From: a virus
IMG/VR virus record: IMGVR_UViG_3300025701_000030
Coordinates: 1-35,259 of that record
Length of the DNA stretch: 35,259 bases
Strand: one strand, 5' to 3'
Part shown: positions 1 through 18,074 of the stretch, piece by piece
Layout: each line of letters begins with the position of its first letter
Position numbering within the stretch: position 1 is the first letter of the stretch
Made by a program: the position numbers and the translations under genes
The notes under the pieces: generated by a model
Told to the model about the DNA's origin: nothing
Database searches by the model: none
What the model saw: the letters and a program-made list of their open reading frames with translations, nothing else

Positions 1-1
1 C

Positions 2-64
2 ACGGCTGCAAGCGTTGCGTACTTGTGGGTAGATAAGCTGAGGGGCTCTGGCGGGGCTCACTAG
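2..64 (+). CDS. Possible 3' end of an upstream gene
   Basis: Frame 2 is open from the window edge and ends at a TAG at 62-64, giving about 20 residues ending in RGSGGAH. The stretch is richer in G+C than the genes that follow. It could be the tail of a gene that begins left of the window, but 20 codons are too few to prove coding and no family is recognisable. Confidence 0.22.
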   Translation, partial: TAASVAYLWVDKLRGSGGAH

Positions 65-111
65 GACATTTGCGATACATATACTGGTATCGTTGAATAG
101 TAGAAACACTT

Positions 112-132
112 AGGGAGTCCATGTGGCTCCCT
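112..132 (+). other. Stem-loop before first small gene
   Basis: AGGGAG at 112-117 pairs with CTCCCT at 127-132, with two further pairs inside (one a G-T wobble). No T-run follows, so it is not a classical terminator; it may be an RNA processing or stability hairpin in the leader. The flanking stretch 65-147 has no convincing gene. It holds a -10-like TATACT at 80-85 without a good -35 partner. Confidence 0.45.
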
Positions 133-147
133 TACAAGGAGAATAAA

Positions 148-237
148 ATGACAATTGCAACAGCTTCAATCATAGGTATTGTCTTCATATTATCAGTCAC
201 AGTAGTAGGACTGATCATTGAGGAAATAATAAGTTAA
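148..237 (+). CDS. 29-residue single-span membrane peptide
   Basis: An ATG preceded by AAGGAG at 136-141 opens a 29-residue frame. Nearly all of it is one hydrophobic helix (residues 2-23, rich in I, V, L and A) ending in the acidic cap EEIIS. The ribosome binding site is near-perfect and the next gene follows in the same direction 18 bases later, which supports real coding. It would insert in the host inner membrane. No family is recognisable. It is one of five or more tiny membrane proteins in this arm. Confidence 0.6.
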   Translation: MTIATASIIGIVFILSVTVVGLIIEEIIS

Positions 238-255
238 CATCCAAGAGGATATGTT

Positions 256-663
256 ATGCGTGATTCAAACACTTTAAAGAATCTCTCAGGTAAAACTATC
301 ACTGTAGTTATCAGTGGAAGTCATACATTGAGACAAGCAGCATTAAGACAAGGTGTGCTGTTAAAGGCTGGTAGATATGTTGTTTCTGTTGTACGTAGAA
401 GCAATCGTAATGTCAACCTTTACCAAGTACAAGCTGGTCAGTTCACATTCATGGCTATTCTAAAAGCAGATGAACACAGTGATGAGACACGTCTTGTCAC
501 ATTCTACTATGGCCAATCAGAAGCTGATGTCTTAGAACATCGTAACAATTCTTACGCTTATGGATTAGACAGTAGAGCTAAGAACAATGACACTTTAACA
601 ATGACGCAACTGATTGAAATATATAAAGAAATCAAAGAGGATCTATCATGTCAATACTATTAG
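256..663 (+). CDS. Hypothetical early protein, 135 residues
   Basis: The start ATG follows AGAGGAT at 244-250. The product is soluble and slightly basic, with an N-terminal half of alternating hydrophobic residues (KTITVVISGSHTL, GRYVVSVVRRSNR) that suggests a beta-rich fold, and a charged helical end (LIEIYKEIKEDL). I do not recognise the family. Its last bases overlap the next small gene, as in a translationally coupled operon. Its position at the start of the early arm suits a host-takeover function, but this is inference. Confidence 0.7.
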   Translation: MRDSNTLKNLSGKTITVVISGSHTLRQAALRQGVLLKAGRYVVSVVRRSNRNVNLYQVQAGQFTFMAILKADEHSDETRLVTFYYGQSEADVLEHRNNSYAYGLDSRAKNNDTLTMTQLIEIYKEIKEDLSCQYY

Positions 664-749
664 TGCTTATCTCACTAACAATAGCTGCCGCACTAGGGGC
701 TGCATTTGCACTAGCTATCTTCAACATCAAAGACAACTTAAAGGACTAA
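648..749 (+). CDS. 33-residue single-span membrane peptide
   Basis: The ATG at 648 lies inside the end of the preceding gene, in another frame, with AGAGGA at 636-641 as ribosome binding site. One hydrophobic helix covers residues 2-25 (LLVLISLTIAAALGAAFALA), followed by a short charged tail (NIKDNLKD). The next gene starts two bases after its stop. Coding is supported by the ribosome binding site, the tight packing and the clear membrane segment. Function unknown. Confidence 0.55.
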   Translation: MSILLVLISLTIAAALGAAFALAIFNIKDNLKD

Positions 750-751
750 TT

Positions 752-886
752 ATGTATAGTTATGAGCAACACGCTAAAAAGATAAGGGATAGAAGAATAA
801 ACGCAGTTAAGACAGTCTTATGGTCAATGTCAATAATGTCAATACCTCTTGTCTTAGTGTTAATAGCTAATCACACCCTGTCATAA
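752..886 (+). CDS. 44-residue membrane protein, basic N-terminus
   Basis: The start is the ATG at 752, with AAAGGA at 740-745 at good distance; a longer frame from 614 has no ribosome binding site and overlaps two genes. Residues 1-20 are basic and hydrophilic (HAKKIRDRRINAVK). Residues 22-40 form one membrane helix, so the N-terminus is probably cytoplasmic by the positive-inside rule. The first conserved stem-loop follows directly after its stop. No family is recognisable. Confidence 0.6.
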   Translation: MYSYEQHAKKIRDRRINAVKTVLWSMSIMSIPLVLVLIANHTLS

Positions 887-888
887 TA

Positions 889-908
889 AACTCTCGCAGG
901 CTCGAGTT
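889..908 (+). promoter_or_regulatory. Conserved stem-loop, copy 1
   Basis: AACTC (889-893) pairs with GAGTT (904-908) around the loop TCGCAGGCTC. The core CTCTCGCAGGCTCGAG at 891-906 is identical to copies at 1695-1710 and 8648-8663. The stem differs from the other copies, yet pairing is kept. It lies 42 bases before the ATG of the next gene. It may be an RNA regulatory element or a hairpin promoter. Confidence 0.7.
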
Positions 909-950
909 ATCCCGTGAGAAACACCATTCATTACCAAAAGGATACATATT

Positions 951-1091
951 ATGTATAATCAAGACTATCAAGAAATCACTACAATCCATGGTCAAGAGTT
1001 AAACAAGGATGAAATAACTCTTCAAGAACTCTTCGACCTAGGCTACTTCGAAGAAGAAGAATACACAATCGATCCAGAAATGGAAGATTAA
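951..1091 (+). CDS. Acidic 46-residue protein
   Basis: The ATG is preceded by AAAAGGA at about 936-942. The product is strongly acidic (ELFDLGYFEEEEYTIDPEMED), with no membrane segment and no cysteine. Small acidic early phage proteins often mimic DNA or bind host enzymes, but nothing here fixes the target. It stands alone between the conserved stem-loop upstream and an intrinsic terminator downstream, so it is likely a single-gene transcription unit, which is unusual in this packed arm. Confidence 0.65.
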   Translation: MYNQDYQEITTIHGQELNKDEITLQELFDLGYFEEEEYTIDPEMED

Positions 1092-1101
1092 TCAATAACT
1101 T

Positions 1102-1129
1102 AGCTCTCCTCACGGAGGGCTTTATTTTT
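1102..1129 (+). terminator. Intrinsic terminator after acidic small gene
   Basis: AGCTCTCC (1102-1109) pairs with GGAGGGCT (1114-1121) around a four-base loop with one wobble, followed by TTATTTTT. It starts 11 bases after the stop of the 46-residue gene. Confidence 0.85.
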
Positions 1130-1152
1130 AACTAATCCAAGAGGGCACACTT

Positions 1153-1305
1153 ATGCTAACTGTATTATTAATTATAAACCTAGTAACAATCCCACTTCTA
1201 TTCCTTACCAAGGACAGAGTGGACAGATTCACAATAAGATTAGTAGCAGTCAGCTTGTGTGTCTTCAACATGCTAATCTGCTCATCAGGTACAACAACAT
1301 GGTAA
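1153..1305 (+). CDS. 50-residue membrane protein
   Basis: The start ATG follows AAGAGGGCA. Residues 1-18 are a hydrophobic helix (LTVLLIINLVTIPLLFL). A charged linker (TKDRVDRFTIR) leads to a second hydrophobic stretch at residues 29-43, so a two-span hairpin is likely. The stop overlaps the start of the metalloprotease gene (ATGGTAA), which points to coupled translation. No family is recognisable; early membrane proteins of this size may act in exclusion or host membrane changes, which is inference. Confidence 0.55.
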   Translation: MLTVLLIINLVTIPLLFLTKDRVDRFTIRLVAVSLCVFNMLICSSGTTTW

Positions 1306-1685
1306 ATATTGACGATATAATAGGTGATTTATTGCCAATTGTGTCAAAATGCATGAAGTATGCAGGTAGAAAACCAATGCTTGTTGATGCAAAAGCAGAT
1401 AGGTCCATAAAGGTTGAGAATCAAGCATACTGTGAATACTTAGGTGATTCATTCGGTGTGCGTTGGTTCTCAATCACGTACCATCCCTCTCTTGAGCAAG
1501 ACGAGAGGGCTCTTATAACCATGCTTTCTCATGAGTTAATACATGCAGTACAGTACGCTAGAGGTGATAAGTTCGACCACAGCCTACCCTACTCACAACA
1601 ACCACATGAAATCGAAGCATACAACCTTGAGGGAGTCGTAGCAGACTCTTACTTCTCCCTTAAGAACCCTAAAGTAACACCTTAA
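1299..1685 (+). CDS. Small zinc metalloprotease-like protein (HExxH)
   Basis: This 128-residue protein carries HELIH at residues 78-82, the zinc-binding signature of zincin metallopeptidases. The two histidines would bind zinc and the glutamate would be the catalytic base. HEIEAY at 103-108 offers a downstream glutamate as third ligand, the spacing expected of short zincins of the SprT or phage metallopeptidase type. I chose the ATG at 1299, which overlaps the stop of the previous gene; a GTG at 1257 in frame would add 14 residues. No signal peptide is seen, so it would act in the cytoplasm. The substrate is unknown, and a host or phage protein target is inference. Confidence 0.75.
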   Translation: MVNIDDIIGDLLPIVSKCMKYAGRKPMLVDAKADRSIKVENQAYCEYLGDSFGVRWFSITYHPSLEQDERALITMLSHELIHAVQYARGDKFDHSLPYSQQPHEIEAYNLEGVVADSYFSLKNPKVTP

Positions 1686-1691
1686 GTACAT

Positions 1692-1713
1692 GACCTCTCG
1701 CAGGCTCGAGGTC
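1692..1713 (+). promoter_or_regulatory. Conserved stem-loop, copy 2
   Basis: GACCTC (1692-1697) and GAGGTC (1708-1713) form a perfect six-pair stem around the same ten-base loop as in copies 1 and 3. The outermost pair is G-C here and A-T in copy 3, a compensatory change. It lies 48 bases before the start of the ssDNA-binding protein gene. Confidence 0.75.
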
Positions 1714-1761
1714 TTAAATGGCACAATGCCAAACAAATCTAATCCAAATAGGAAATATATT

Positions 1762-2265
1762 ATGACTACTCAAATCAATGAACCACGCAACTATGTAATC
1801 AAAGATGTTGAATTAAACTACGCTAAAGTTGCTAAGCCAGTCAGCCCCTTCGGTGTTGAGCAATATGAAGTACAAATCGCTACTACTGATCGTCAGTTAG
1901 CGGAGACATTGAAAGCTAACTTCTTCAATGTTAAAGAGAAAGACGGTAAGTTCATTGTGTCATTGAAACGTAAAGCACAACGTGCAGACGGTTCAGATAA
2001 CGGTGCTCCTAAAGTCTTCGATAAGAACTTGCAGCCAATCGAGGGTGAAGCCCTTACTAAGATTGGTAACGGTTCTAGAGGCAATGTTAAGGTGTTCCAA
2101 TACCCTTACAGTGCTGGTGGTCGTTCTGGTATCGCTGGTTCATTAACAGCAATCCAAATCACAGACCTTGTGGAGTACTCAGGTATGGGCTCTATCACTG
2201 ATGGGTTCGACTTACCTTCAGCACCTGGAGATAGCACTGTAGAGGACGCTGGAGCAGCGTTCTAA
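1762..2265 (+). CDS. ssDNA-binding protein, T7 gp2.5-like
   Basis: This 167-residue protein resembles podoviral single-stranded DNA-binding proteins: an N-terminal beta-rich OB-fold-like region (NYAKVAKPVSPFGVEQYEVQ), a basic middle (VSLKRKAQRADG) and aromatic strands (GNVKVFQYPYSAGGRSG). The last residues (STVEDAGAAF) are mildly acidic and end in phenylalanine, as in T7 gp2.5, where the terminal F helps contact polymerase and helicase. It would coat single strands during replication and recombination. The ATG at 1762 is chosen because the upstream extension runs through the conserved stem-loop. The acidic tail is weaker than in T7. The stop overlaps the start of the next gene. Confidence 0.75.
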   Translation: MTTQINEPRNYVIKDVELNYAKVAKPVSPFGVEQYEVQIATTDRQLAETLKANFFNVKEKDGKFIVSLKRKAQRADGSDNGAPKVFDKNLQPIEGEALTKIGNGSRGNVKVFQYPYSAGGRSGIAGSLTAIQITDLVEYSGMGSITDGFDLPSAPGDSTVEDAGAAF

Positions 2266-2441
2266 TGAACCCTTGGTATAGAACTGAAGATGTCCATACG
2301 TTGCTCAGAGAGGCCCTTGATGGGGTTCTCTTAGCACAAGAGTTAATACAGAATGGTAATGAGGGTTTAGCAGTAGATGAGCTAGAAATAGCATTCAGTC
2401 ATCTTAAACTCTTACAAGAAGCAATCAGTGAGTCCTGTTAG
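2265..2441 (+). CDS. 58-residue helical protein, unknown
   Basis: The ATG overlaps the stop of the ssDNA-binding protein gene (TAATG), so translation is probably coupled. The sequence is predicted helical and acidic (VHTLLREALDGVLLAQELI, LAVDELEIAFSHLKLLQEA), with leucine spacing suited to a two-helix bundle. Its stop lies inside the stem of the terminator at 2429-2459. No family is recognised; a partner of the ssDNA-binding protein would fit the coupling but is inference. Confidence 0.65.
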   Translation: MNPWYRTEDVHTLLREALDGVLLAQELIQNGNEGLAVDELEIAFSHLKLLQEAISESC

Positions 2442-2459
2442 GGCTCATTGGTTTTTTTT
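2429..2459 (+). terminator. Intrinsic terminator after ssb operon
   Basis: TGAGTCC (2429-2435) pairs with GGGCTCA (2441-2447), including one G-T wobble, around a five-base loop. TTGG and eight T residues (2452-2459) follow. The left stem and loop overlap the last codons of the 58-residue gene. Confidence 0.9.
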
Positions 2460-2471
2460 GATATGTCAACC

Positions 2472-2520
2472 CAAGGCCCCTACGGACCTTGTGTTAACTC
2501 AAGGGGATTCCCCTTGTAAC
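2472..2520 (+). other. Two adjacent hairpins in intergenic gap
   Basis: Hairpin one pairs CAAGG (2472-2476) with CCTTG (2487-2491), with two further C-G pairs inside. Hairpin two pairs CAAGGGG (2500-2506) with CCCCTTG (2510-2516) around a three-base loop, and is framed by GTTA (2493-2496) and TAAC (2517-2520). They lie between the terminator and the next gene. Neither is followed at once by a long T-run. They may protect or process the next mRNA. Confidence 0.5.
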
Positions 2521-2535
2521 CCCTTTTAGAGGATA

Positions 2536-2549
2536 CCGACAAGGGCCCC
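2536..2549 (+). promoter_or_regulatory. CCGACAAGGGCCCC motif, copy 1
   Basis: This 14-base motif matches 8567-8580 at 13 of 14 positions. Both copies follow GATA at a short distance, lie downstream of an intrinsic terminator and precede a new run of genes. That placement fits a phage promoter, possibly for the T7-like polymerase, but two copies are too few to define a consensus. Confidence 0.4.
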
Positions 2550-2550
2550 C

Positions 2551-2718
2551 ATGGATTACATCAAAACAAAGTTAGCACTTATAAAGCACCACATCTACCG
2601 TATTGTCACAAACTACTCTATGAAAGGCCATCGTTGGGCTAGAGTATTAGTGATTTATACTTATCAAAAGAAACTCAAACAGGAGCACAAATTCTATGTT
2701 CAATCAAAATCAGAATAA
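2551..2718 (+). CDS. Basic 55-residue protein, unknown
   Basis: The ATG comes directly after the CCGACAAGGGCCCC motif; AAGGG within the motif could serve as ribosome binding site. The product is very basic (KTKLALIKHHIYRIV, MKGHRWARVLV, YQKKLKQEHK), with a possible amphipathic or membrane-surface helix. It overlaps the next gene by 23 bases in another frame. No family is recognised. Because motif and start touch, either the motif is not a promoter or the mRNA is almost leaderless; coding is therefore only moderately sure. Confidence 0.45.
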   Translation: MDYIKTKLALIKHHIYRIVTNYSMKGHRWARVLVIYTYQKKLKQEHKFYVQSKSE

Positions 2719-2929
2719 AGTTAAGATGGCAACTGTCAATGAGTTGTTAGCCCTTCCTAAACAGACTAGCCATGTCCGATACAAAAGCGAGAATGATCGC
2801 ATGTGGCCCCTCCTAGTCCCAGAGGATATACGTTCAGATGCAGGTTCAGCTAAGGCATCTAAAAACCGTATGTTCTGCAAGATAAATACCTTCACTAAAC
2901 ACTATGAGGAGCACTCATTATGTCTCTAG
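2696..2929 (+). CDS. Hypothetical protein, 77 residues
   Basis: AGGAG near 2682 gives a ribosome binding site for the ATG at 2696; a later ATG at 2726 lacks one. The middle (ELLALPKQTSHVRYKSENDRMWPLL) is polar with few hydrophobic stretches, and no known motif is seen. Its end overlaps the start of the exported ClpP-fold gene by ten bases, so the two are likely translated together. Function unknown. Confidence 0.6.
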   Translation: MFNQNQNKVKMATVNELLALPKQTSHVRYKSENDRMWPLLVPEDIRSDAGSAKASKNRMFCKINTFTKHYEEHSLCL

Positions 2930-3567
2930 ATAAAAAAGCTAAAGTGTTGACACAAGCTACAATAACTATAATATTGCTGATGTCATTCATAACATATGTA
3001 AATAATGCCGATGCAGCTACCATGCGTATATCTGATAAAGGCACAACCCTGTACTATGACGGTGCTGTTCAATGGGGTGACTACCATAGGCTAAAAGATC
3101 TGATTAATAAGAATCCTAAACTCCTATACATATCTCTTAACTCAAGAGGTGGGTCAGCTCAAGAGGGACGTAACATAGGTATCCTACTAAGAAAGTCACT
3201 ACTGACTACTGTAGTCCAAGAGAATGCCATATGTGCATCAGCTTGTACTTCTATGTTCCTAGGTGGTGTAGTGCGTATAGTTGAGTCATCTGCAAGAATG
3301 ATGTACCATCCGCCATACATGGAGGAATATCCTCAAGGTTGGACAATGGAGCATATAGCGTTAAGTGCTCAAAACCAAACAGCAATCGAGATAGCACACT
3401 CAGTGGCACTTGTTGAGCTTAACAAAGAGTTTCAAGTTGTTAAGTTCTTGTTGCACAATGTGTATAACTTGAAAACAAACAGTGGGATACTCTATACTGC
3501 ATCCCCTCAAGAACTTCTAGATTCTGGTATTGCTACTCGAGTTTACACAAAAACCAAAGGTGAGTAA
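2920..3567 (+). CDS. Exported ClpP-fold serine protease-like protein
   Basis: This 215-residue protein starts with a lysine-rich end and one hydrophobic helix (about residues 11-27), then an A-D-A site near residue 32, so a cleaved signal peptide is likely and it would act in the periplasm. The rest matches the ClpP/crotonase fold: LNSRGGSAQEG at 73-83 (oxyanion-type glycines), CASAC with the candidate nucleophile Ser107, and MMYHPP with His130, the order seen in ClpP. It belongs with the secreted ClpP-like proteins rather than cytoplasmic ClpP. It lies just before the AAA+ gene, but a periplasmic protein cannot dock with it. The substrate is unknown. Confidence 0.7.
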   Translation: MSLDKKAKVLTQATITIILLMSFITYVNNADAATMRISDKGTTLYYDGAVQWGDYHRLKDLINKNPKLLYISLNSRGGSAQEGRNIGILLRKSLLTTVVQENAICASACTSMFLGGVVRIVESSARMMYHPPYMEEYPQGWTMEHIALSAQNQTAIEIAHSVALVELNKEFQVVKFLLHNVYNLKTNSGILYTASPQELLDSGIATRVYTKTKGE

Positions 3568-3569
3568 TC

Positions 3570-4619
3570 ATGGCTGATAAAAACACTAAATATATGTTCG
3601 CAGACACTTGTGAACCACTGTTCTATATGCTTGATAGAGACAGTGATACAATATCTTGGGTATTCATTATGGATTCCAATGAAGCTGTATCTCTCTCAGA
3701 CAGCGATATGGATGATCTTATCCAGAAAGGTAAAGTTGTACAAGAGACAGAAGAAGCATTGTCAAGTTTCTTCACAGATGCAATCAATGGCAAAGGTGGT
3801 GAAAATGCTATCAACATGTTCGGTTTCTTAGAAATACCTGCTCCTACTACCTCTGATAAGAAAGAAGAAAACACAGAGGATGAGGGTGAAGTGATCAAAG
3901 TGCCTGATACATACCGACCAGAGCTATGTAATACCTCTATCTCACCAGAAGTACTCGTTAAAAAGCTAAAGATTGCAGAGTCAAAGACAGAACGTCCTGA
4001 TTGTATCTCTATCTTATTCGAAGGTGTTCCTGGAAGTGGTAAGACACTAGCTGCTGCATACATAGGTAAGGAACTCGGTAAGACTGTTAAGTCATACAGA
4101 TTGAGTGAACTACAGAACAAGTATGTTGGTGAGTCTGAAAAGTTGATTGCTGAAGCATTTGATAAAGCAGAAGAGAATGGTCACATATTACACATTGATG
4201 AGATTGATTCACTCAGCCGTTCACGTAACGATGAGTCTAAAGGTCATGAGATCAAGATGTGCAACACACTGTTACAATGCCTCGATAGGTTCAAGGGTAT
4301 CTTCATAGCTACCACTAACTATCGTGATGAGTTAGACTCAGCAGTCAAACGTCGGTTCTTACTCAAGCAAGAGTTCAAGAACTGCACTTCAGAACAAGCT
4401 AATGAACTCTCTAAGTTGTTCTTCGGTAAGCGCATAGCCCCTATGAACCTACCTAACGAGACATTCGCCCCTGCAGACTTCAATATCGTCAAGAACTCCT
4501 TCTTGTTCGAAGAAGATAAGACAATCAACCGCAAGTTCATCCTCAAGCGTCTCACAGAAGAAGCAAAGGATCGTAACGGTAAAGACTTAGTTAATAAGAA
4601 AAAGGTAGGATTCCTATGA
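3570..4619 (+). CDS. Classical AAA+ ATPase (unfoldase-like)
   Basis: This 349-residue protein has an acidic N-terminal region (1-140) and one AAA+ module. Seen motifs are Walker A GVPGSGKT (152-159), a pore-loop-like KYVGESEK starting at residue 184, Walker B HIDEIDSL with D210 and E211, sensor 1 in FIATTNY, and arginine fingers R261 and R262. The pattern is that of FtsH/Vps4-like classical AAA proteins, which thread substrates through a hexamer. The C-terminus reads KKVGFL; V-G-F resembles the IGF/IGL tripeptide by which ClpX and ClpA dock on ClpP, although there it sits in an internal loop. With clpP two genes downstream, a phage protease complex is a fair inference. The end overlaps the next gene by four bases. 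Confidence 0.85.
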   Translation: MADKNTKYMFADTCEPLFYMLDRDSDTISWVFIMDSNEAVSLSDSDMDDLIQKGKVVQETEEALSSFFTDAINGKGGENAINMFGFLEIPAPTTSDKKEENTEDEGEVIKVPDTYRPELCNTSISPEVLVKKLKIAESKTERPDCISILFEGVPGSGKTLAAAYIGKELGKTVKSYRLSELQNKYVGESEKLIAEAFDKAEENGHILHIDEIDSLSRSRNDESKGHEIKMCNTLLQCLDRFKGIFIATTNYRDELDSAVKRRFLLKQEFKNCTSEQANELSKLFFGKRIAPMNLPNETFAPADFNIVKNSFLFEEDKTINRKFILKRLTEEAKDRNGKDLVNKKKVGFL

Positions 4620-4795
4620 GTGATCTAAGAAAACAATCTCAAGCAAGTATTACAGAGTTATCAAAACTGGCTGACTACTGTTCCATGATGTCTTGTAAGA
4701 CAGGTGAGAGTAAATACATGACAGCTTATCACGAAGTAGCAGATGCAATGGTCAGTATTAAAGAGTTCATTAAGAGTGAGGAAGAAAACCTATGA
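4616..4795 (+). CDS. 59-residue helical protein between ATPase and clpP
   Basis: Both ends overlap neighbours by ATGA, so it is translated in step with the AAA+ ATPase and ClpP. The product is helical and acidic at the end (VADAMVSIKEFIKSEEENL), with cysteines at 22 and 27. No family is recognised. Its place between an unfoldase and its likely peptidase suits a substrate adaptor or assembly factor, but that is inference from position alone. Confidence 0.65.
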   Translation: MSDLRKQSQASITELSKLADYCSMMSCKTGESKYMTAYHEVADAMVSIKEFIKSEEENL

Positions 4796-5370
4796 TACCT
4801 ATGATTGTAGAGAAAGAAGGTTCAAGAGAACGCTCATGGGATGTGTACAGTCGGTTACTAAAGGACCGTATCATCTTCCTTAACACGGACTTCAATGATG
4901 ACATGGCTTCTGCAATCTGTGCTCAGCTTATCTTGTTAGAGGCTGAAGACTCAAAGGCAGATATCACTATGTATATCAACAGTCCTGGAGGTTCTGTTAG
5001 CTCAGGCATGGCTATCTATGATACAATGCAGTACATCAAACCAGATGTGTCTACAGTTATCATGGGCCAAGCATGCTCCATGGGTTCCTTCACAGCTAAT
5101 GCTGGTGCAGCAGGTAAACGATTCATGTTACCAAATGCACGTCACATGGTTCACCAAGTGTCAGCAGGCACTAGTGGTCAATGCTCAGACATGGAAATTG
5201 CAGTTAAAGAGGCTCGTCGTATTAACGATGATCTGGCTAAAATCTATGTCAAACACAACAGTAAAGGTAAGACACTGTCAGACTTCCGAAAGGTAATGGA
5301 CCGTGATAGTTGGATGACATCACATGAAGCATTGAAGTTCGGTCTTATTGACAAAATCATTAAACGATAA
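4792..5370 (+). CDS. clpP: ATP-dependent Clp protease proteolytic subunit
   Basis: This 192-residue protein aligns with bacterial ClpP over its whole length. The triad is in place: Ser96 in GQACSMGSF, His121 in PNARHMVHQ and Asp172 in DRDSWMT, with Ser-His spacing identical to Escherichia coli ClpP. YINSPGGSVSSGMAIYDTMQ and the C-terminal GLIDKIIK are family hallmarks. It would form a 14-subunit chamber that needs a AAA+ partner, either host ClpX/ClpA or the phage ATPase two genes upstream. No long propeptide is seen. The start shares ATGA with the gene before. A phage-encoded active ClpP is uncommon; it may redirect host proteolysis or process phage proteins. Confidence 0.93.
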   Translation: MIPMIVEKEGSRERSWDVYSRLLKDRIIFLNTDFNDDMASAICAQLILLEAEDSKADITMYINSPGGSVSSGMAIYDTMQYIKPDVSTVIMGQACSMGSFTANAGAAGKRFMLPNARHMVHQVSAGTSGQCSDMEIAVKEARRINDDLAKIYVKHNSKGKTLSDFRKVMDRDSWMTSHEALKFGLIDKIIKR

Positions 5371-5373
5371 ACT

Positions 5374-5507
5374 ATAACATAAGGAGGATTGCCGTTCTCT
5401 TAAGTTATATGCATTACAAGATGTAGAGGGTTGCCGCCCTCGGGAACAGTATGGTCTTGCCGGACCATGCTTTTCTTCAAGTACATTCCAAGAGTGTGCT
5501 TCAAGAA
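5374..5507 (+). ncRNA. Four-hairpin structured element, TTGCCG loops
   Basis: Hairpin A pairs AGGAGGA (5382-5388) with TTCTCTT (5395-5401), extendable outward to 5374-5408. Hairpin B pairs GAGGG (5426-5430) with CCCTC (5437-5441). Hairpin C pairs ATGGTC (5451-5456) with GACCAT (5463-5468), extendable by three pairs. All three have the loop TTGCCG (5389-5394, 5431-5436, 5457-5462). Hairpin C is followed by TTTT. Hairpin D pairs TTCTT and AAGTACA with TGTGCTT and AAGAA (5473-5507) around a C-C mismatch. The element fills the gap after clpP; no gene is seen in it. Whether it is a stable RNA, a terminator cluster or a leader is not known. Confidence 0.6.
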
Positions 5508-5529
5508 GAGTTCAACTAGAGGATACATT

Positions 5530-5946
5530 ATGAAACGCTATCAGGTATACAAAAACCTACACAAAAACTGCTGGTCTATCAGAGATGCTAAAACCAAACA
5601 TGTTGTTGGTCATGCTGATACTGTTCAGTTGTTCCAAGTGAAATATAAAGTAAGTAAAGCAGGTCGTGAGAGAGTCTTAAGAGACCAGCGTAAGAGCGTC
5701 CATGCAGTAGTTGAGGGTGAGATTGTATCAGTCTCAGGCTTCACTTCCTTCAAAGGTAGGTCATTCCAATCTCATGGAGTGTACCCTAACTTATACTCCG
5801 ATAGAGTATACCTAGAAGAGCTCACATACAACCCCTACAGGTTCACTCACTTCGTCAAGAAGATGTCTGAGAACTTAGTACTGAATAGTCGTATGGCCAC
5901 ACTTGACCGCCATGGCAAGCTAACTGGAGGATTCCAAAGCATATGA
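5530..5946 (+). CDS. Conserved-type phage protein, 138 residues
   Basis: The ATG at 5530 follows AGAGGAT (5518-5524); a TTG-start extension to 5431 would run through the hairpins and is rejected. The protein is basic, opening with MKRYQVYKNLHKNCWSIRD and with GRERVLRDQRKSVHAVVEGE in the middle. From memory, small proteins of this pattern occur in many lytic phages without known function; I could not check this. The second half is aromatic and beta-like (GVYPNLYSDRVYLEELTYNP). Its stop overlaps the next start. Confidence 0.75.
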   Translation: MKRYQVYKNLHKNCWSIRDAKTKHVVGHADTVQLFQVKYKVSKAGRERVLRDQRKSVHAVVEGEIVSVSGFTSFKGRSFQSHGVYPNLYSDRVYLEELTYNPYRFTHFVKKMSENLVLNSRMATLDRHGKLTGGFQSI

Positions 5947-6137
5947 ATAGTAGAATAGATGAACTAACCATTGAGACTCTTGATGACAACATCGAGATTG
6001 CCCTAGAAATATTGACCAACCTAGAGTCTGGTGAGTATACACCACGTATGGCTGCACAATTCCTCTTTCAACTAGTAGAGGATTGCCAGTGCCATGCTAA
6101 AGATATCGAGTACACTAAGTATTATGGAACTGATTAA
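5943..6137 (+). CDS. Acidic helical protein, 64 residues
   Basis: The start ATGA overlaps the previous stop. The product is acidic and helical (ELTIETLDDNIEIALEIL, AAQFLFQLVEDCQCH), with two cysteines near the end. It overlaps the next gene by 14 bases. No family or motif is recognised. Confidence 0.65.
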   Translation: MNSRIDELTIETLDDNIEIALEILTNLESGEYTPRMAAQFLFQLVEDCQCHAKDIEYTKYYGTD

Positions 6138-6318
6138 GTATACAATACACTACCATAAGGGAACACCTTCGAAGTCCCAGGTAGTCCACAAAGATATCGT
6201 GTATTCTCAAAATGACATATCAGCAGATAAAGCACGTAAAACTCTTGAGGTCCTAGCTCCAGAGCATGACTTCAATACCTTATGTCAAACCCAATACCTA
6301 GAAAACGAAGGATTATAA
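6124..6318 (+). CDS. Hypothetical protein, 64 residues
   Basis: I place the start at the ATG at 6124, inside the end of the preceding gene; an ATG at 6094 in the same frame lacks a ribosome binding site and would overlap by 44 bases. AAGTATT upstream is a weak ribosome binding site, so coupled translation is likely. The N-terminus is beta-like (LIKYTIHYHKG) and the rest helical (ISADKARKTLEVLAPEHD). No family is recognised. Confidence 0.55.
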   Translation: MELIKYTIHYHKGTPSKSQVVHKDIVYSQNDISADKARKTLEVLAPEHDFNTLCQTQYLENEGL

Positions 6319-6319
6319 G

Positions 6320-6520
6320 ATGAGTAAGCTATATAAACTATGTACAGGTAAGAATGGTTGTAACGGTGTGTTACCCTTAGACCAGTTCGCTACTGATAAA
6401 AGCTCCGTAGATGGTCACTACCGTTACTGTCGTTCATGTGAGCGTAAGTACCAAAAGAAAATGAAAAAAGTCCGTGAGGCATATGGTGTAGGATTGCGTG
6501 AACTATCTAAACTAAACTAA
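6320..6520 (+). CDS. Small zinc-finger-like protein
   Basis: This 66-residue protein starts one base after the previous stop, with GAAGGAT as ribosome binding site. Cysteines at 8 and 13 and the pair in YCRSCERKYQ (37 and 40) suggest one zinc site. The pattern PLDQFATDKSSVDGHYRYC resembles the short zinc-binding module found at the N-terminus of phage HNH nucleases, here without a nuclease domain. The C-terminus is basic (KKMKKVREAYG). DNA or RNA binding is likely; the role is unknown. Confidence 0.7.
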   Translation: MSKLYKLCTGKNGCNGVLPLDQFATDKSSVDGHYRYCRSCERKYQKKMKKVREAYGVGLRELSKLN

Positions 6521-6544
6521 TCAAAAAAAACCCAGGAGGGTACT

Positions 6545-6796
6545 ATGAGTAACATAATTGAAGAAACTGTGCATGTTGAGCTACGTGACTTAACCTTTGA
6601 GGTAGAAGTTGCTTACCTTCCTAGTAATAATGCAACAGACCCACGTGATAACTTCGAGGGTGCGATTATAAGTTATGACCTCATTGAGGTTTACTATGAC
6701 CAAGGCTATGCAGAGTTTCCACCAGACACTGTTAATTGGTTAGCTGAGCAACATGGTGATGAAGTTGTAGAAGAACTTAAGGAAATATTACTATGA
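6545..6796 (+). CDS. Acidic protein, 83 residues
   Basis: A strong ribosome binding site, AGGAGGG, lies just before the ATG. The product is acidic, with an N-terminal strand pattern (TVHVELRDLTFEVEVAYLP) and an acidic C-terminal helix (EVVEELKEILL). It overlaps the next gene by four bases. No family is recognised. Confidence 0.7.
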   Translation: MSNIIEETVHVELRDLTFEVEVAYLPSNNATDPRDNFEGAIISYDLIEVYYDQGYAEFPPDTVNWLAEQHGDEVVEELKEILL

Positions 6797-7245
6797 TTAA
6801 AATACCTAACCTAGAACGATTGGCTCTTGAAGCAATATTAAATGACGGTACATACAATGGTGATGAAGATTGGTGGACAAGTATGACCACTAATGAGACT
6901 AAAGTATATGACATCAACGTCTATCATGAAAACCCATCTGATACTAATGTTCGTATAACAATCTACAACTGTATCGCTTCAATGGACGGTACCAATTGGG
7001 TAACAGATACAGAAAGCGAAGCAGGTTTCATGGAAATACCTAAGTCCGTAATCATGCCTGATAGACAGGAAAGATTATATGAAGTGTCCTTCCAAGTTAT
7101 CACAGAGTATACCGTTAGCGTACATAATAGTGAACACGCTGAAGCATTACGTACAGTTAGACGTATGGATAATGAGAACGACTTAATAACTCGTGGAAAG
7201 TTCAAAGGTATGCATACAAAGATAACATCATGTAAGGAAATGTAA
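6793..7245 (+). CDS. Hypothetical protein, 150 residues
   Basis: It starts in an ATGA overlap with the gene before and ends by sharing one base with the gene after. The first part reads as a small beta domain (TKVYDINVYHENPSDTNVR). The end (YEVSFQVITEYTVSVHNSEH, followed by ALRTVRRMD) looks like a short beta-alpha unit often seen in small phage proteins. No catalytic motif is seen and I do not recognise the family. Confidence 0.7.
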   Translation: MIKIPNLERLALEAILNDGTYNGDEDWWTSMTTNETKVYDINVYHENPSDTNVRITIYNCIASMDGTNWVTDTESEAGFMEIPKSVIMPDRQERLYEVSFQVITEYTVSVHNSEHAEALRTVRRMDNENDLITRGKFKGMHTKITSCKEM

Positions 7246-7445
7246 TGAGTCAGGAACTTAAGTTAATATACAAATGTGTCTCATACCTCGAAGAACAAGG
7301 GTATTATGGTAATATAGACCTAATATACGCTGTCAATGAGGTTGCTAATGATGCAGCATACTATATCTGTGAACGCTTCACTACTCCCGATGGTGGTGAG
7401 GTTGATGATAACACTTACCAAGTCATTAAGGAGTGGTTAGAATGA
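7245..7445 (+). CDS. Acidic protein, 66 residues
   Basis: The ATG overlaps the previous TAA by one base (TAATG), with TAAGGA upstream. The product is acidic and mixed helical (LIYKCVSYLEEQGYYGNIDL, then GEVDDNTYQVIKEWLE), rich in tyrosine. The stop overlaps the next start by ATGA. No family is recognised. Confidence 0.65.
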   Translation: MSQELKLIYKCVSYLEEQGYYGNIDLIYAVNEVANDAAYYICERFTTPDGGEVDDNTYQVIKEWLE

Positions 7446-7675
7446 GAGAATCACACAAACACGCAGAATTAATTGATATTGTAAAAACAATTAACTTGTA
7501 CTTCCATTATCAATCACTGTCAGAGTCCTTCCACGACATGGCGGAAATAGCGAGGGAGAATGGTGACCATGAAGATGTAGTGCGCTTATGTAAAGACTCC
7601 ATCAAATATGCCAAGTATGCTATGGATGTAAAGCGTATCATCATTGATGAGTTTAAAGAAGAATTAGAGGATTAG
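7442..7675 (+). CDS. Helical protein, 77 residues
   Basis: AAGGAG at about 7428-7433 serves the ATG at 7442; an earlier in-frame GTG at 7433 is less likely. The protein is all-helical in appearance (AELIDIVKTINLYFHYQSL, DVVRLCKDSIKYAKYAMDV) with a charged C-terminus (EFKEELED). It may form a small bundle or an oligomer. No family is recognised. Confidence 0.65.
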   Translation: MRESHKHAELIDIVKTINLYFHYQSLSESFHDMAEIARENGDHEDVVRLCKDSIKYAKYAMDVKRIIIDEFKEELED

Positions 7676-7677
7676 TT

Positions 7678-8388
7678 ATGAAAGGTTTTATTCTATATGA
7701 AGGCCCCTCAATGTTCGATAAGAAACCCATAGTAGCCATCGTGACCTTCAGCTCAACCAATGAGAAGACAGGGAACATGGCACAACTATGGATACTTCCT
7801 AAAGACGTAGCACCCCATGAAGCAGTCAAGTCCGGGAAGGACCAATCTGTCTGTGGTGGTTGCCAGCATCGACACAATCTAGGAGGTGCCTGTTATGTTC
7901 TACCATTCCAGGGCCCTCTATCTGTATGGCGTTCATACAAGCGTGGATTGTACCCTAAATCGAACCCTAAGGCTCTCCTAAAGCTTATGCTTAAGGAACT
8001 AAGGCTAGGTGCTTATGGAGACCCCGCAATGCTCCCAGAAGACCACCTACGAGCTGTCAAATCAGTAGCCCGTGGTACAACAGGTTACTCTCACCAGTGG
8101 AAGAATAAGAGACTCAAACATGCTATGCAGTATTGCCAAGGGTCCGTAGATTCACTAGAGGAAGCTAAACAGTTCAAAGAAATGTATCCTAATGGTCATT
8201 ACTTCCGTGTTACTGATGATATCTCAGATATACAAGAAGATGAAATACAATGCCTCGCAGATACCAAAGGCTTAACATGCCAACAGTGCATGTTATGTGA
8301 CGGCACTAAACAGAATATCGTCATAGAAGTACATGGCGCTAAGAAGTCTCGGTTCACCTCAGATATTCAGATCAAGGAAGTTGTTTAA
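7678..8388 (+). CDS. Conserved-type phage protein with cysteine clusters, 236 residues
   Basis: It starts two bases after the previous stop. The N-terminus (LYEGPSMFDKKPIVAIVTFS) and the segment APHEAVKSGKDQSVCGGCQH followed by GGACYV form a pattern I associate with a widespread phage family of unknown function. GPLSVWRSYKRGLYP follows. Cysteines in C-G-G-C and later in TCQQCMLCDG suggest at least one zinc site. The final third (IVIEVHGAKKSRFTSDIQ) is basic. A nucleic-acid role is likely from the charge and cysteines, but no catalytic motif is clear. The stop overlaps the next start. Confidence 0.75.
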   Translation: MKGFILYEGPSMFDKKPIVAIVTFSSTNEKTGNMAQLWILPKDVAPHEAVKSGKDQSVCGGCQHRHNLGGACYVLPFQGPLSVWRSYKRGLYPKSNPKALLKLMLKELRLGAYGDPAMLPEDHLRAVKSVARGTTGYSHQWKNKRLKHAMQYCQGSVDSLEEAKQFKEMYPNGHYFRVTDDISDIQEDEIQCLADTKGLTCQQCMLCDGTKQNIVIEVHGAKKSRFTSDIQIKEVV

Positions 8389-8504
8389 TGTCAGAAGTTA
8401 TTGGTTTTGTAGCACCTCTTGCCCTTGCCCTCTTTGTTATCAGAGGGTATGTCTTCATCTTCAAAGAAGAGTTAGACAACTGGTGTGATGACAATGAAGA
8501 CTAG
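8388..8504 (+). CDS. 38-residue single-span membrane protein
   Basis: The ATG overlaps the stop of the preceding gene (TAATG), with AAGGAAG upstream. Residues 4-25 form one hydrophobic helix (IGFVAPLALALFVIRGYVFI). The C-terminus is acidic (EELDNWCDDNED). It closes the run of small genes; the terminator starts at its stop codon. Function unknown. Confidence 0.6.
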   Translation: MSEVIGFVAPLALALFVIRGYVFIFKEELDNWCDDNED

Positions 8505-8530
8505 GGACCCTTAGGGTCTCTTTCCTTTTT
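8503..8530 (+). terminator. Intrinsic terminator closing small-gene operon
   Basis: AGGGACCC (8503-8510) pairs with GGGTCTCT (8514-8521), with one G-T wobble, around the loop TTA. The tail TTTCCTTTTT follows. It overlaps the stop of the 38-residue gene. Confidence 0.85.
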
Positions 8531-8566
8531 GCTTCAACCGTCTGCCCCTTTCCCTTTTTGATAAAA

Positions 8567-8580
8567 CCGACATGGGCCCC
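8567..8580 (+). promoter_or_regulatory. CCGACATGGGCCCC motif, copy 2
   Basis: This second copy differs from 2536-2549 by one base. It follows a pyrimidine-rich stretch (8531-8560) and GATA, and comes after a terminator. It lies 129 bases before DUF3310 and the replication genes, a sensible place for a promoter. Apart from this motif and the stem-loop at 8645, no gene is seen between 8531 and 8695. Confidence 0.42.
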
Positions 8581-8644
8581 ATTATACGCCCCAGGAATAC
8601 GCTTCGGCAATCACTTGGTCCCCTTAAGAAACCCTAAAGACACT

Positions 8645-8666
8645 AACCTCTCGCAGGCTCGAGGTT
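8645..8666 (+). promoter_or_regulatory. Conserved stem-loop, copy 3
   Basis: AACCTC (8645-8650) pairs perfectly with GAGGTT (8661-8666) around the same ten-base loop as copies 1 and 2. It lies 29 bases before the start of the DUF3310 gene, at the head of the replication block. Confidence 0.75.
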
Positions 8667-8695
8667 TTAAGAGGTATTAAATATAGGAATTATAA

Positions 8696-8932
8696 ATGAA
8701 TGCAGTGAACCCTAGCCACTATCAAAGTGGTACAATAGAATGTATAGATTATATAGAGGAAGTTCTAGGTCCCGATGGATCTATAGCTTACTGCCAAGGT
8801 AATGTGACTAAGTATCTTCACAGATGGAAGATGAAGAATGGTCTCGAGGATCTAAAGAAAGCTCAATGGTACATCAACAAGATGGTAGAGCTAGAGACTA
8901 AGAGAGATGAAGAAGACGTAGAGTACCTATAG
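8696..8932 (+). CDS. DUF3310 family protein (T7 gp1.7-like)
   Basis: This 78-residue protein has the DUF3310 signature: NPSHYQSGTIECIDYIEEV near the start, then GNVTKYLHRWKMKNGLEDLK and KAQWYINKM. The family is common in phages and, as I recall, includes the T7 gp1.7 nucleotide kinase; this short version consists of the core only. It would support nucleotide supply for phage DNA synthesis. It leads the replication block, after the third conserved stem-loop. The ribosome binding site (TATAGGAA) is fair. Confidence 0.8.
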   Translation: MNAVNPSHYQSGTIECIDYIEEVLGPDGSIAYCQGNVTKYLHRWKMKNGLEDLKKAQWYINKMVELETKRDEEDVEYL

Positions 8933-9011
8933 GGATATACCCTCGGGGCCTACAAGAGTTATCGTACAGTTAAACTAAACACAATGCAACCCTAAGCTAC
9001 CATAATGTAGC
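8931..9011 (+). other. Leader of polymerase gene with two hairpins
   Basis: AGGG (8931-8934) pairs with CCCT (8940-8943) directly at the stop of the DUF3310 gene. GCTAC (8996-9000) pairs with GTAGC (9007-9011) around CATAAT, just before the AGGAG ribosome binding site (9012-9016) of the polymerase gene. The second hairpin could limit access to that site. No gene is seen in 8933-9022. Confidence 0.4.
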
Positions 9012-9022
9012 AGGAGATAGAA

Positions 9023-10870
9023 ATGAGCAAATACATATTTGATATAGAAAGTGATGGCCTACTAGATACCATAAGTACTATCTGGTGCCTAGTACTACAA
9101 GATGCAGACACTAAAGAGATCTTATCTTACAGTGATTACGATGATGACCTACCTAGTTTAGCAGAGGGTATGCAGAAGCTACAGGATGCTGAGTTACTTA
9201 TAGGGCATAACATCATAGGGTATGACGTACCTGCTATTAAGATAGTCACAGGTATAGACCTGATGGATAAGAACATGCATGACACTTTGATTATGTCTCG
9301 TGTTAATCGCTACAAGCGTCCCTTCGTAGGACACTCGTTGAAAGCATGGGGTGAGTTCCTAGGGGACTCTAAGCTACAGTATGATGACTGGACTAAGTAC
9401 TCTAAGCAAATGCTAACGTACTGTATACAAGACGTTGAGTTGAACACACAGGTCTATGATGTAGTACTTGGAGAGTTCAAACAGTTAGCTGCACACAACC
9501 CTAACTATGCTAAGGGTATGCGTATGGAGCATGAGGTAGCTAAGCTACAAGAAGCTATCACAGAGGAAGGTTGGAACTTCGATGAGGTTAAGGCCAGGGA
9601 AACTCACAAGCGTATGACAGATCGTATGGAAGCCATTGAGAAAGAAGTGTATCCACACCTAGGGACTCACAAGGTATTCATAGATAAAGAAGAGAAGACA
9701 GCTAAGTATAAGAAAGATGGTACATACACAGCTGTAACTTGTCGTATCCTGTCTGATTACCTAGGACGTCCTATCATGGGTGAAGATGCACTGTTAGATA
9801 ACCCACCAGTACAACCTGGTCAAGGTATCAAGCGTTCACGTATAGAGCAGATCACACTAGGTCAAACAGACTTAGTCAAAGAGTGGTTACTATCTATTGG
9901 TTGGAAGCCTGATGAGTATAACCGTAAGATGATCAATGGTCGTTGGCAGAACACAGGTCCTAAGCTAACAGAGACATCCCTCAGTAAGCTTGGTAAGTTC
10001 GGTGAGTTAGTAGGTGAGTATTATACTATACGTAACCGTTCAAGTGTCTTAGAGAGCTGGTTAGAGAACCTTAAGGATGGTCGCTTACATGGTAAGATGT
10101 TCACCATAGGTACTCCTAGCTTCCGTGCAAGACACTCTATCATTGTTAACATCCCCTCAACAGAAGCTGCATGGGGTAAAGAGATGCGTGAGCTATTCAG
10201 AGCTGACGAAGGTGACCTGTTAGTAGGTGCAGATAGTTCAGGTAATCAGCTACGTGGTCTAGTCCACTATGTTAATAACCCTGAGTATACTGACGTCGTG
10301 ATTAACGGTGACCAACATCAGCGTAATGCAGATGCACTAGGTTGTACACGTTCGACTGCTAAGTCATACTTGTATGCTTATCTATTCGGTGCAGGTGATG
10401 GTAAACTAGGTCAAGTGTTGTCTGGTAAATCTAATCCTACACTAGGTCGTAACTCTAAGGAGCAGTTTGCTAGATCTATTAAAGGTCTAGACAAGCTTAA
10501 GAAATCAGTAGAGGGTGCATGGGCTCAACGTGAACATCAACAAGGTATGGGGTGGATCTTCGGATTAGATGGTCGTCCAGTGTTCGTACCTTCACAACAC
10601 CAATGTCTTAACTATCTCTTGCAGTGTGCCGAGGGTATCACTTGTAAGGCTGCAGCTGTATGGGCTATGAAGAAAATCAAAGAGGAAGGACTACGTGGTA
10701 AGCTACGTATTATCTACCATGATGAAATTCAGATTAGTGCTCACCCTGATGATGCTGAACGTATCAAAGAGATTGCTGCTGCATCATTCAAAGAAGCCCC
10801 TAAGGACTTCGGTGTGATGGTAATGGATGGTGATGGATGTGTAGGGAGAGACTACTCGGAGACACACTAA
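9023..10870 (+). CDS. Family A DNA polymerase, T7 type
   Basis: This 615-residue replicative polymerase has a 3'-5' exonuclease domain: FDIESDGL with D7 and E9, IGHNIIGYDVPA, and YCIQD. The polymerase domain has motif A VGADSSGNQLR (D404), motif B RSTAKSYLYAYLFGAG (K447, Y451), and motif C YHDEIQ (H566, D567, E568). Tyr451 matches T7 Tyr526, which governs discrimination against dideoxynucleotides; the next helix residue Y530 of T7 is F455 here. It is shorter than T7 gp5 (704 residues), so the thioredoxin-binding insert may be reduced or missing. A strong AGGAG site precedes the ATG. The stop overlaps the endonuclease VII gene. Confidence 0.95.
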   Translation: MSKYIFDIESDGLLDTISTIWCLVLQDADTKEILSYSDYDDDLPSLAEGMQKLQDAELLIGHNIIGYDVPAIKIVTGIDLMDKNMHDTLIMSRVNRYKRPFVGHSLKAWGEFLGDSKLQYDDWTKYSKQMLTYCIQDVELNTQVYDVVLGEFKQLAAHNPNYAKGMRMEHEVAKLQEAITEEGWNFDEVKARETHKRMTDRMEAIEKEVYPHLGTHKVFIDKEEKTAKYKKDGTYTAVTCRILSDYLGRPIMGEDALLDNPPVQPGQGIKRSRIEQITLGQTDLVKEWLLSIGWKPDEYNRKMINGRWQNTGPKLTETSLSKLGKFGELVGEYYTIRNRSSVLESWLENLKDGRLHGKMFTIGTPSFRARHSIIVNIPSTEAAWGKEMRELFRADEGDLLVGADSSGNQLRGLVHYVNNPEYTDVVINGDQHQRNADALGCTRSTAKSYLYAYLFGAGDGKLGQVLSGKSNPTLGRNSKEQFARSIKGLDKLKKSVEGAWAQREHQQGMGWIFGLDGRPVFVPSQHQCLNYLLQCAEGITCKAAAVWAMKKIKEEGLRGKLRIIYHDEIQISAHPDDAERIKEIAAASFKEAPKDFGVMVMDGDGCVGRDYSETH

Positions 10871-11226
10871 TGAAATGCAAACATGAGGGTTGTGACAATG
10901 ATGCTTATTATAATAAGAAAAGAAAGTATCAATCGTCTACCTGTACTATTTGTAAGAACAATCTGACAAGATACAACCTAACAACCCCTGAAAGGGATAC
11001 CTTATTGGTATCTCAAGGGGGTCGTTGCAAGTGTTGTGATAGGAAGATAACCTTTGGTCTTAACGGTACCAGTAAACATGCTGCTGTTGTAGACCACTGC
11101 CATAAGTACGGACACGTTAGGGCAATAATATGTGGGAGATGTAACAACATACTAGGGCAAGTTAATGATAACCCCCTAAGATTATATCAAATGGCCCACT
11201 ACCTGGAGGACGACAATGAAAGATAG
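10870..11226 (+). CDS. Recombination endonuclease VII
   Basis: This 118-residue protein shows the endonuclease VII zinc fold: paired cysteines in CKCC, the active-site segment VVDHCHKYGHVRAIICGRCN, and the helix DNPLRLYQMAHYLE. The family cuts Holliday junctions and branched DNA before packaging. An extra cysteine-rich N-terminus (CKHEGCDNDAYY, CTICKNN) precedes it. I chose the ATG that overlaps the polymerase stop (TAATG). Free-standing homing relatives exist, but the position inside the replication block favours a resolvase role. It overlaps the exonuclease gene by 11 bases. Confidence 0.85.
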   Translation: MKCKHEGCDNDAYYNKKRKYQSSTCTICKNNLTRYNLTTPERDTLLVSQGGRCKCCDRKITFGLNGTSKHAAVVDHCHKYGHVRAIICGRCNNILGQVNDNPLRLYQMAHYLEDDNER

Positions 11227-11923: not shown

Positions 11924-12275
11924 CGTAAAACCCCTCAGTGCCAATAAGATGTTTGGTCACAGAGGAAAGACAACATTTAAAACTAAGGACTACTTAGGGT
12001 ACCAAAATGAAATACGAGATGAGATTCGACAGGAAGCAGAGGATGATGAATGGCCTTTTGCTAGTAGCTACGTTAAGTTCACTATTACTGCTGGGCTTTC
12101 TAACCGTGGTGCTGACCTTGATAACATCCTGAAACCCCTGTTCGATACATACCAATCTATCTACACCAACTTCAATGACAACAAAGTGTACCTCATCAAG
12201 GCCACTAAGGACATCGTTAAGAAAGGTGAAGAGTACTTAGAAGTAACCGTTGAGGAATATACTGATGGCGAGTAA
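11898..12275 (+). CDS. RusA family Holliday junction resolvase
   Basis: This 125-residue protein has the RusA signature: NRGADLDNILKPLFD with D73 and D75, and NDNKVYLIKATKD with D94 as a third metal-binding acid. RusA cuts four-way junctions symmetrically. With endonuclease VII three genes away, the phage would have two unrelated resolvases, perhaps one for replication recombination and one for packaging clean-up (inference). The ribosome binding site GGGAGGAG is very close to the ATG at 11898. The end overlaps the PhoH gene. Confidence 0.85.
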   Translation: MITLHHRFNVKPLSANKMFGHRGKTTFKTKDYLGYQNEIRDEIRQEAEDDEWPFASSYVKFTITAGLSNRGADLDNILKPLFDTYQSIYTNFNDNKVYLIKATKDIVKKGEEYLEVTVEEYTDGE

Positions 12276-13598: not shown

Positions 13599-13599
13599 A

Positions 13600-13902: not shown

Positions 13903-13912
13903 GGGGTTAGTC

Positions 13913-14258: not shown

Positions 14259-14275
14259 AATCAGAGGACAAAACT

Positions 14276-15913: not shown

Positions 15914-15926
15914 GAAAAGAAATCAT

Positions 15927-18065: not shown

Positions 18066-18074
18066 GGGACCCTT

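Follow-up and report, generated by a model that had tools for sequence, protein, structure and literature searches.

Known motor-peptidase pairs and the phage locus

The motors of ClpP are taken to be of the ClpX, ClpA or ClpC type, while the proteasome has classical AAA motors that act through their C-terminal tails. For the proteasomal ATPases and HslU, docking through such tails is the rule. The anti-phage protein IetA is an AAA ATPase whose partner is a subtilisin. In ClpXP and ClpAP, an AAA ring is joined to ClpP and docks by a tripeptide of a hydrophobic residue, glycine and phenylalanine or leucine, as set out in PMC7112951 and PMC8745299. Phage ClpXP pairs are already known: the annotation of Pseudomonas phage MIJ3 lists clpX, clpS and clpP, several Clp proteins are annotated in Agrobacterium phage Atu_ph07 according to PMC6102473, and a viral contig (L008) carries ClpX 3.6 kb from ClpP. 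At the locus described here, the motor class and the docking mode would be new. No paper on a ClpP-docking classical AAA protein or a C-terminal IGF tail was found in the open-licence PMC literature, preprints excluded.

The DNA analysed, called the window below, is a virus record of 35,259 bases (IMG/VR IMGVR_UViG_3300025701_000030) and is probably a fragment. Its plus strand encodes a family-A DNA polymerase, a primase-helicase, a T7-type RNA polymerase, a Gp2.5-like protein, an exonuclease and PhoH, and the minus strand carries the structural genes, between about 18.9 kb and 35.3 kb. A near-identity search of positions 1-18200 against a phage collection gave no match, and the records of this phage group are all environmental contigs, with 0 isolates. 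Four tightly packed plus-strand genes lie in the early/replication part (Table 1). The stop of the ATPase gene and the start of the 59-aa gene share an ATGA at 4616-4619, and the stop of the latter and the start of the ClpP gene share another at 4792-4795. The translational link from ATPase to ClpP through a 59-residue gene, proposed in a first-pass annotation, is thus borne out by overlaps at both junctions.

Table 1. Features of the ATPase-ClpP locus (window coordinates)
Feature	Position	Strand	Evidence
ClpP-related protein, 215 aa	2920..3567	+	NCBIfam NF045542 2.4e-6; phrog_30575 1.3e-5
Classical-clade (Cdc48/PAN-like) AAA ATPase, 349 aa	3570..4619	+	Pfam, phmmer, AF2 model, Foldseek
Walker A, G152-T159	4023..4046	+	sequence; G152, G155, G157, K158 invariant in alignment A5
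Pore-loop-1-like KYVGESEK, 184-191	4119..4142	+	sequence; G187, E190 invariant in A5
Walker B region LHIDEID, 207-213	4188..4208	+	L207, D210, E211, D213 invariant in A5
Sensor-1 region ATTN, 247-250	4308..4319	+	N250 invariant in A5
Paired arginines R261/R262 (arginine-finger position)	4350..4355	+	invariant in A5
C-terminal tail 337-349, predicted unstructured	4578..4616	+	pLDDT < 50 at 339-349
V-G-F-L: putative ClpP-docking tripeptide 346-348 plus one residue	4605..4616	+	[VAI]GF in 4/4 phage ATPases
59-aa protein, overlapping ATPase and ClpP genes by ATGA	4616..4795	+	sequence
Full-length ClpP, 192 aa, with N-terminal axial-loop region, without long propeptide	4792..5370	+	Pfam, phmmer, E. 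coli alignment
ClpP catalytic Ser96	5077..5079	+	aligns with E. coli S97
ClpP catalytic His121	5152..5154	+	aligns with E. coli H122
ClpP catalytic Asp172	5305..5307	+	aligns with E. coli D171

A presumed AAA ring and its putative docking on ClpP would liken this locus to ClpXP and ClpAP, but the phage motor is of the classical Cdc48/PAN-like type and its motif is in a C-terminal tail, whereas that of ClpX is in an internal loop (IGF at residue 268 in E. coli). The motors of the PAN/Mpa/Rpt-20S and Cdc48-20S systems belong to the same classical AAA clade and are the nearest solved sequences and folds; they differ in that the phage partner is ClpP and the phage tail is [VIA]GF followed by one to three residues, not HbYX. 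MIJ3 and Atu_ph07 likewise encode a ClpP plus an unfoldase, although with ClpX/ClpA-type motors and jumbo genomes, and the MIJ3 genes do not overlap ClpP. A complete unfoldase-protease pair on a podovirus genome had been called unusual. For the pairing itself there is precedent (MIJ3, Atu_ph07, L008), and it is the motor class and the place of the motif that stand out.

The ATPase, its tail and the neighbouring proteins

The ATPase consists of an N-terminal region (residues ~1-108), a single AAA module (~109-336) and the tail. It matches Pfam AAA PF00004 at 4.2e-28, its best solved-sequence matches by phmmer are VCP-like and Cdc48 ATPases, and the top Foldseek matches of its AF2 model are 26S Rpt subunits, FtsHi, Msp1 and p97, with PAN also found. 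The Walker motifs, the pore-loop-like KYVGESEK and the paired arginine fingers given in the first-pass annotation were all recovered: Walker A, D210/E211 of Walker B and N250 of sensor-1 are intact, and G187, E190, R261 and R262 do not vary in alignment A5. This alignment comprises 72 rows picked for the GF tail, so that the invariance of G347 and F348 in it is by construction. Since all catalytic motifs are intact, the ATPase should hydrolyse ATP. Residues 1-108 have no family match and are poorly modelled by AF2; in the same model, helix 321-336 is the last element and an unstructured tail follows.

Membership of the ClpX/Clp group was rejected. The ClpX profile gives 15.3 bits against a cut-off of 370.75, the ClpB_D2-small domain PF10431 is missing from the Pfam scan of the ATPase and from the whole window record, and there is no internal IGF loop, the motif being at 346-348 of 349, past the last helix. 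IetA is the best NCBIfam match (78.9 bits) and the top PADLOC match (95.2 bits), and IetA is also an AAA protein encoded with a peptidase. However, the NCBIfam score is far under the curated cut-off of 510 bits, so that this identity was rejected as well; in addition, the phage partner is ClpP and the IetA-like protein of L183 has no GF tail. L183 (Paenibacillus phage Yyerffej) has an IetAS-like arrangement, in which the AAA gene is closely followed by a peptidase-domain gene and one annotated as a putative toxin. The best PHROG is 10401 (137 bits), a group of tandem-AAA ATPases named 'ATP-binding protein' at NCBI. Its proteins also have a C-terminal IGF, but they possess two AAA modules in about 700 aa and are without an adjacent ClpP, and the phage ATPases form a separate clade.

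The C-terminal V-G-F-L noted in the first-pass annotation was confirmed (K-K-V-G-F-L), and it fits the ClpP-docking motif (L/I/V)-G-(F/L) described in PMC8745299. The four phage ATPases known to us from this analysis end in KKKVGFL (window), IKKAGFAHE (L004), IKKVGFAHE and NKIGFL, and the AGF of L004 departs from the described motif. Burial or lack of conservation of the tripeptide had been named as arguments against docking; residues 339-349 are predicted to be unstructured (pLDDT < 50), and GF is kept in 4/4 phage ATPases. Among these four, 5/13 tail positions are invariant, compared with 0/48 in residues 60-107, a region mostly of low model confidence (Fisher p = 2e-4). From sequence and model, the conserved positions in this flexible tail look like a short docking motif. 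In ClpXP, the IGF residues pack into ClpP clefts, as stated in PMC7112951.

The ClpP is a full-length enzyme with the triad S96/H121/D172, as had been proposed. It matches Pfam CLP_protease at 3.5e-71 and solved ClpPs at 5.6e-60 (phmmer, residues 1-190 of 192 aligned), is identical to the mature ClpP of E. coli K-12 at 91/192 positions (47%), and scores 267 bits against NF001368, over its cut-off of 249. We compared the cleft at residues which, R192 apart, we take to be the positions that receive the IGF loop. Tyr62, Met92, Phe112 and Leu114 are unchanged between the phage and E. coli proteins, and F82Y, I90V, L48I, F49L and L189I are conservative changes. The other changes are V44C and the replacement of Tyr60 by Thr, the latter common to the three phage ClpPs compared. 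Nothing in the window ClpP is aligned at E. coli R192, a residue critical for ClpX binding in E. coli ClpP according to PMC7112951.

Two further proteins are encoded in the cluster. The 59-aa protein has no family match in Pfam, PHROG or NCBIfam; a search for its gene elsewhere returned the same virus and nothing more, and the gene is missing at the AAA-ClpP junction of L004 and L005. A role as adaptor would be a guess. The 215-aa ClpP-related gene, which the first-pass annotation does not mention, ends 2 bp upstream of the ATPase gene and gives the operon a second protein of the ClpP fold. The hydrophobic N-terminus of its product is a probable signal or anchor, an apparent Ser is seen in CASAC and an apparent His in YHPP, and a search for relatives also returned only the same virus (L359 and L360, at 100%). 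Whether this protein belongs to the ATPase-ClpP system is uncertain.

Relatives in viruses and bacteria

The ATPase and ClpP are found together in four distinct viruses, namely the window and three others with an ATPase 51-59% identical to it. L002 and L003 are the same virus as the window (100%). In L004 and L005, the ATPases are 59% and 58% and the ClpPs 70% identical to those of the window, and the two reading frames overlap directly without the 59-aa gene. L006 was reached through its ClpP (66%) and sits in the 60,656-base record G005, where the ATPase (51%) is on the same strand, 10.5 kb upstream. Thus the genes are adjacent in three viruses and 10.5 kb apart in one, and since G005 has both, the pairing has survived a rearrangement of the gene order. 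ATPase and ClpP go together in four viruses through insertion, loss and rearrangement around them. The E-values, together with the three other distinct viruses with both genes, exclude a chance origin of the observation. A Clp-type ATPase with PF10431 was found in 0/6 podovirus-type records, which may be incomplete.

A full-length ClpP (>180 bits) was found on 7/21 viral records that encode this kind of AAA protein or a close relative of it, and a weak match on 2/21; of the control records, 1/25 has a weak match. Record size confounds this co-occurrence, because the controls are mostly smaller records and 5 of the 7 full-length-ClpP records exceed 200 kb. Several individual records look like repeated pairings of a GF-tailed classical AAA protein with ClpP. 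G023 (231 kb) encodes a full ClpP and a single-AAA protein of 309 aa with KVGF at its end, and on G019 (55 kb) the gene of a GMGF-bearing tandem AAA is about 5.4 kb from that of ClpP; a search for PF10431 Clp-type ATPases found none on either. On L097, a jumbo contig of 354,680 bases, a differently built AAA protein (174-1238; PF00004 41.9 bits) ends in KKMGFV 4.8 kb from ClpP, which looks like a separate instance of the GF tail. Two other candidates were rejected as they have no GF tail: the AAA gene at L180:6787-7911, 72 bp upstream of ClpP in Atu_ph07, encodes a protein ending in SFVF, and that at L155:267-1442, about 1.1 kb upstream of ClpP, one ending in YYDF. On each of the jumbo records G011 (462 kb) and G014 (465 kb), two ClpP-like genes are accompanied by two ATPases with PF10431 and a tandem AAA that has an IGF tail.

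The same C-terminal [ILVM]GF is carried by a Cdc48-like tandem-AAA family of bacteria and viruses. It is in the last 8 residues of 70/77 bacterial members from the best 80 of 436 loci, compared with 7/1454 other ORFs of at least 200 aa on genome, viral, plasmid and phage loci. A bacterial member is defined here by a tandem-AAA profile score of at least 300 bits and a stop on the locus, with lower-scoring or cut rows excluded. Within the same best 80 of 436 loci, 74 tails have a GF, preceded by I in 49, M in 16, V in 5, L in 2, F in 1 and S in 1, so that MGF (16/74) departs from (L/I/V)-G-(F/L); here too GF is 0 to 12 residues from the end. This variable distance is more in keeping with a peptide motif than with an HbYX tail, which depends on its carboxylate. 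In viral rows of at least 300 bits, [ILVM]GF is in the last 8 residues of 13/17 and the last 25 of 15/17. The motif is C-terminal in 1/29 viral AAA rows of 100-200 bits (L299) and 3/12 rows of 30-100 bits (L325, L326, L337); L295, whose 225 bits place it between the 100-200 bin and that of at least 300, ends in KVGF. None of 10 outgroup AAA sequences, taken from records of phages and viruses, has a C-terminal GF.

In a set of ten tandem-AAA proteins, IGF is in the last 8 residues of seven, further in for two and absent from one (L196). Plasmid relatives end in IGFVY, IGFLQ, IGFR, IGFV, IGFLH and IGFGR. The plasmid tandem-AAA genes L188-L195 are near WYL-domain, DUF2779, Sir2, nuclease, macro-domain or BREX genes, which gives several of the plasmids a defence-island look. 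The tail of the bacterial member L197 is also unstructured in its model (residues 695-700, pLDDT < 50), and another member, L189, scores 428 bits against PHROG 10401. The nearest further relative, which ends in PIGFIH, is a 695-aa tandem-AAA protein of MT835507; across the AAA module it shares 45% identity with the L176 ATPase. MT835507.1 is catalogued as a human-faeces phage but has the look of a bacterial fragment, the best relative of its tandem AAA being a Pseudomonas luteola plasmid protein (54%). In a sample of one bacterial class, the family was found in 12/185 genomes (about 6%). Among the matches with the C-terminus kept, 9 carry [ILM]GF there (in L376 more than 8 residues from the end), and L377 and L384 (one genome) and L383 (SGF) are without it; L382 is broken.

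The window tail VGFL agrees with the C-terminal [ILVM]GF of this family, and one of the four phage ATPases has AGF. Nevertheless, the phage ATPases were rejected as family members: they have one AAA module, and in the tree they form a clade (100/99) outside the bacterial GF clade (split 98/88). From this split, the GF tail is either ancestral or was acquired more than once, and it may be convergent between the phage and bacterial ATPases.

No strong ClpP match was found within 5 kb of the bacterial tandem-AAA genes in the best 80 of 436 loci. In the bacterial genomes examined, clpP and a proteasome-fold peptidase gene are each present in 28/28, so that occurrence does not decide the partner of the family; in 2/28, which also have clpP, the proteasome-fold matches are only weak (best 39.7 and 33.8 bits). 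The phages, with a ClpP gene beside the motor, point to ClpP.

The proposed machine and its alternatives

We suggest that the phage probably makes its own two-part ATP-dependent protease, in which a Cdc48/IetA-like motor docks by its tail on the phage ClpP. This reading, as advanced in the first-pass annotation, has gained partial support from the co-occurrence of both genes in four viruses, the kept unstructured tail and the same motif in the Cdc48-like family; the ATPase hexamer, docking on ClpP and degradation are what we infer. The classical-clade ATPase, probably a hexamer, would recognise substrates through its N-terminal region and pull them through the KYVGE pore loop. The flexible C-terminal tails would tether the motor to a presumed tetradecamer of the phage ClpP, with the (V/I/A)-G-F tripeptide entering the hydrophobic ClpP clefts just as ClpX inserts its internal IGF loops. 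The substrates could be proteins of the host or early proteins of the phage; this guess comes from the location of the genes among those for replication.

The cleft might also suit a different motor. As most of the compared residues are kept, the phage ClpP might redirect host ClpX or ClpA, and the AAA ATPase would be a separate machine, a remodeller or chaperone, that just happens to be encoded in the same operon. Many viral ClpP loci are indeed without a nearby AAA (22 Walker-A ORFs within 5 kb, on 21/162 loci), and PMC7824862 discusses jumbo-phage ClpP as used against the host. Yet the ATPase is encoded by every one of the four viruses that have this ClpP subfamily (66-100% identical), the genes are coupled or overlapping in three of the four, and the tail motif would be left unexplained; we regard this as unlikely. 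The tail could instead dock the phage ATPase mainly on host ClpP, with the phage ClpP a mixed or decoy subunit. The bacterial tandem-AAA proteins, which have no adjoining ClpP in the best 80 of 436 loci, would need the clpP of the cell (28/28 genomes). The phage, however, keeps a ClpP of its own coupled to the ATPase gene, which makes this arrangement very unlikely.

It is quite unlikely, in our view, that the likeness to IGF is coincidental and the tail has another job, with HslV, an Anbu-type peptidase or a non-protease partner, or in ring assembly. Tail docking by the proteasomal ATPases and HslU would suit such a role, as would the nearest annotated family, anti-phage IetA with its subtilisin partner; proteasome-fold peptidases in 28/28 bacterial genomes are compatible with it, and occurrence does not separate the readings. 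Against it, two of these genomes have clpP and only weak proteasome-fold matches, the distance of GF from the end is not fixed, the phages place ClpP and not HslV beside the ATPase, and the L097 protein has its GF tail near a ClpP. In a last reading, the ClpP would be a head-maturation protease, as the PHROG labels of its relatives say, and the ATPase an assembly chaperone. This was rejected and we give it hardly any credence, since the ClpP is of the full-length enzyme type by its NF001368 score and lies among plus-strand early/replication genes, far from the minus-strand structural genes.

Returning to a tail-docked motor on ClpP, we lean slightly towards a wider reading, in which Cdc48-like classical AAA motors that dock by a C-terminal I/V/M-G-F tail form a widespread and so far unrecognised class of proteases that depend on ClpP, and in which the small phages with a private ClpP reveal the partner. 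As part of the same reading, the motors would mostly be tandem proteins of about 700 aa on proteobacterial chromosomes, plasmids and phages. If this is true, a classical motor with the Clp docking tripeptide as its C-terminal tail bridges the ClpP and proteasome designs. The phage would gain a private proteolysis machine that is independent of host ClpX, and host ClpP would become a testable partner for a large uncharacterised family of bacterial ATPases.
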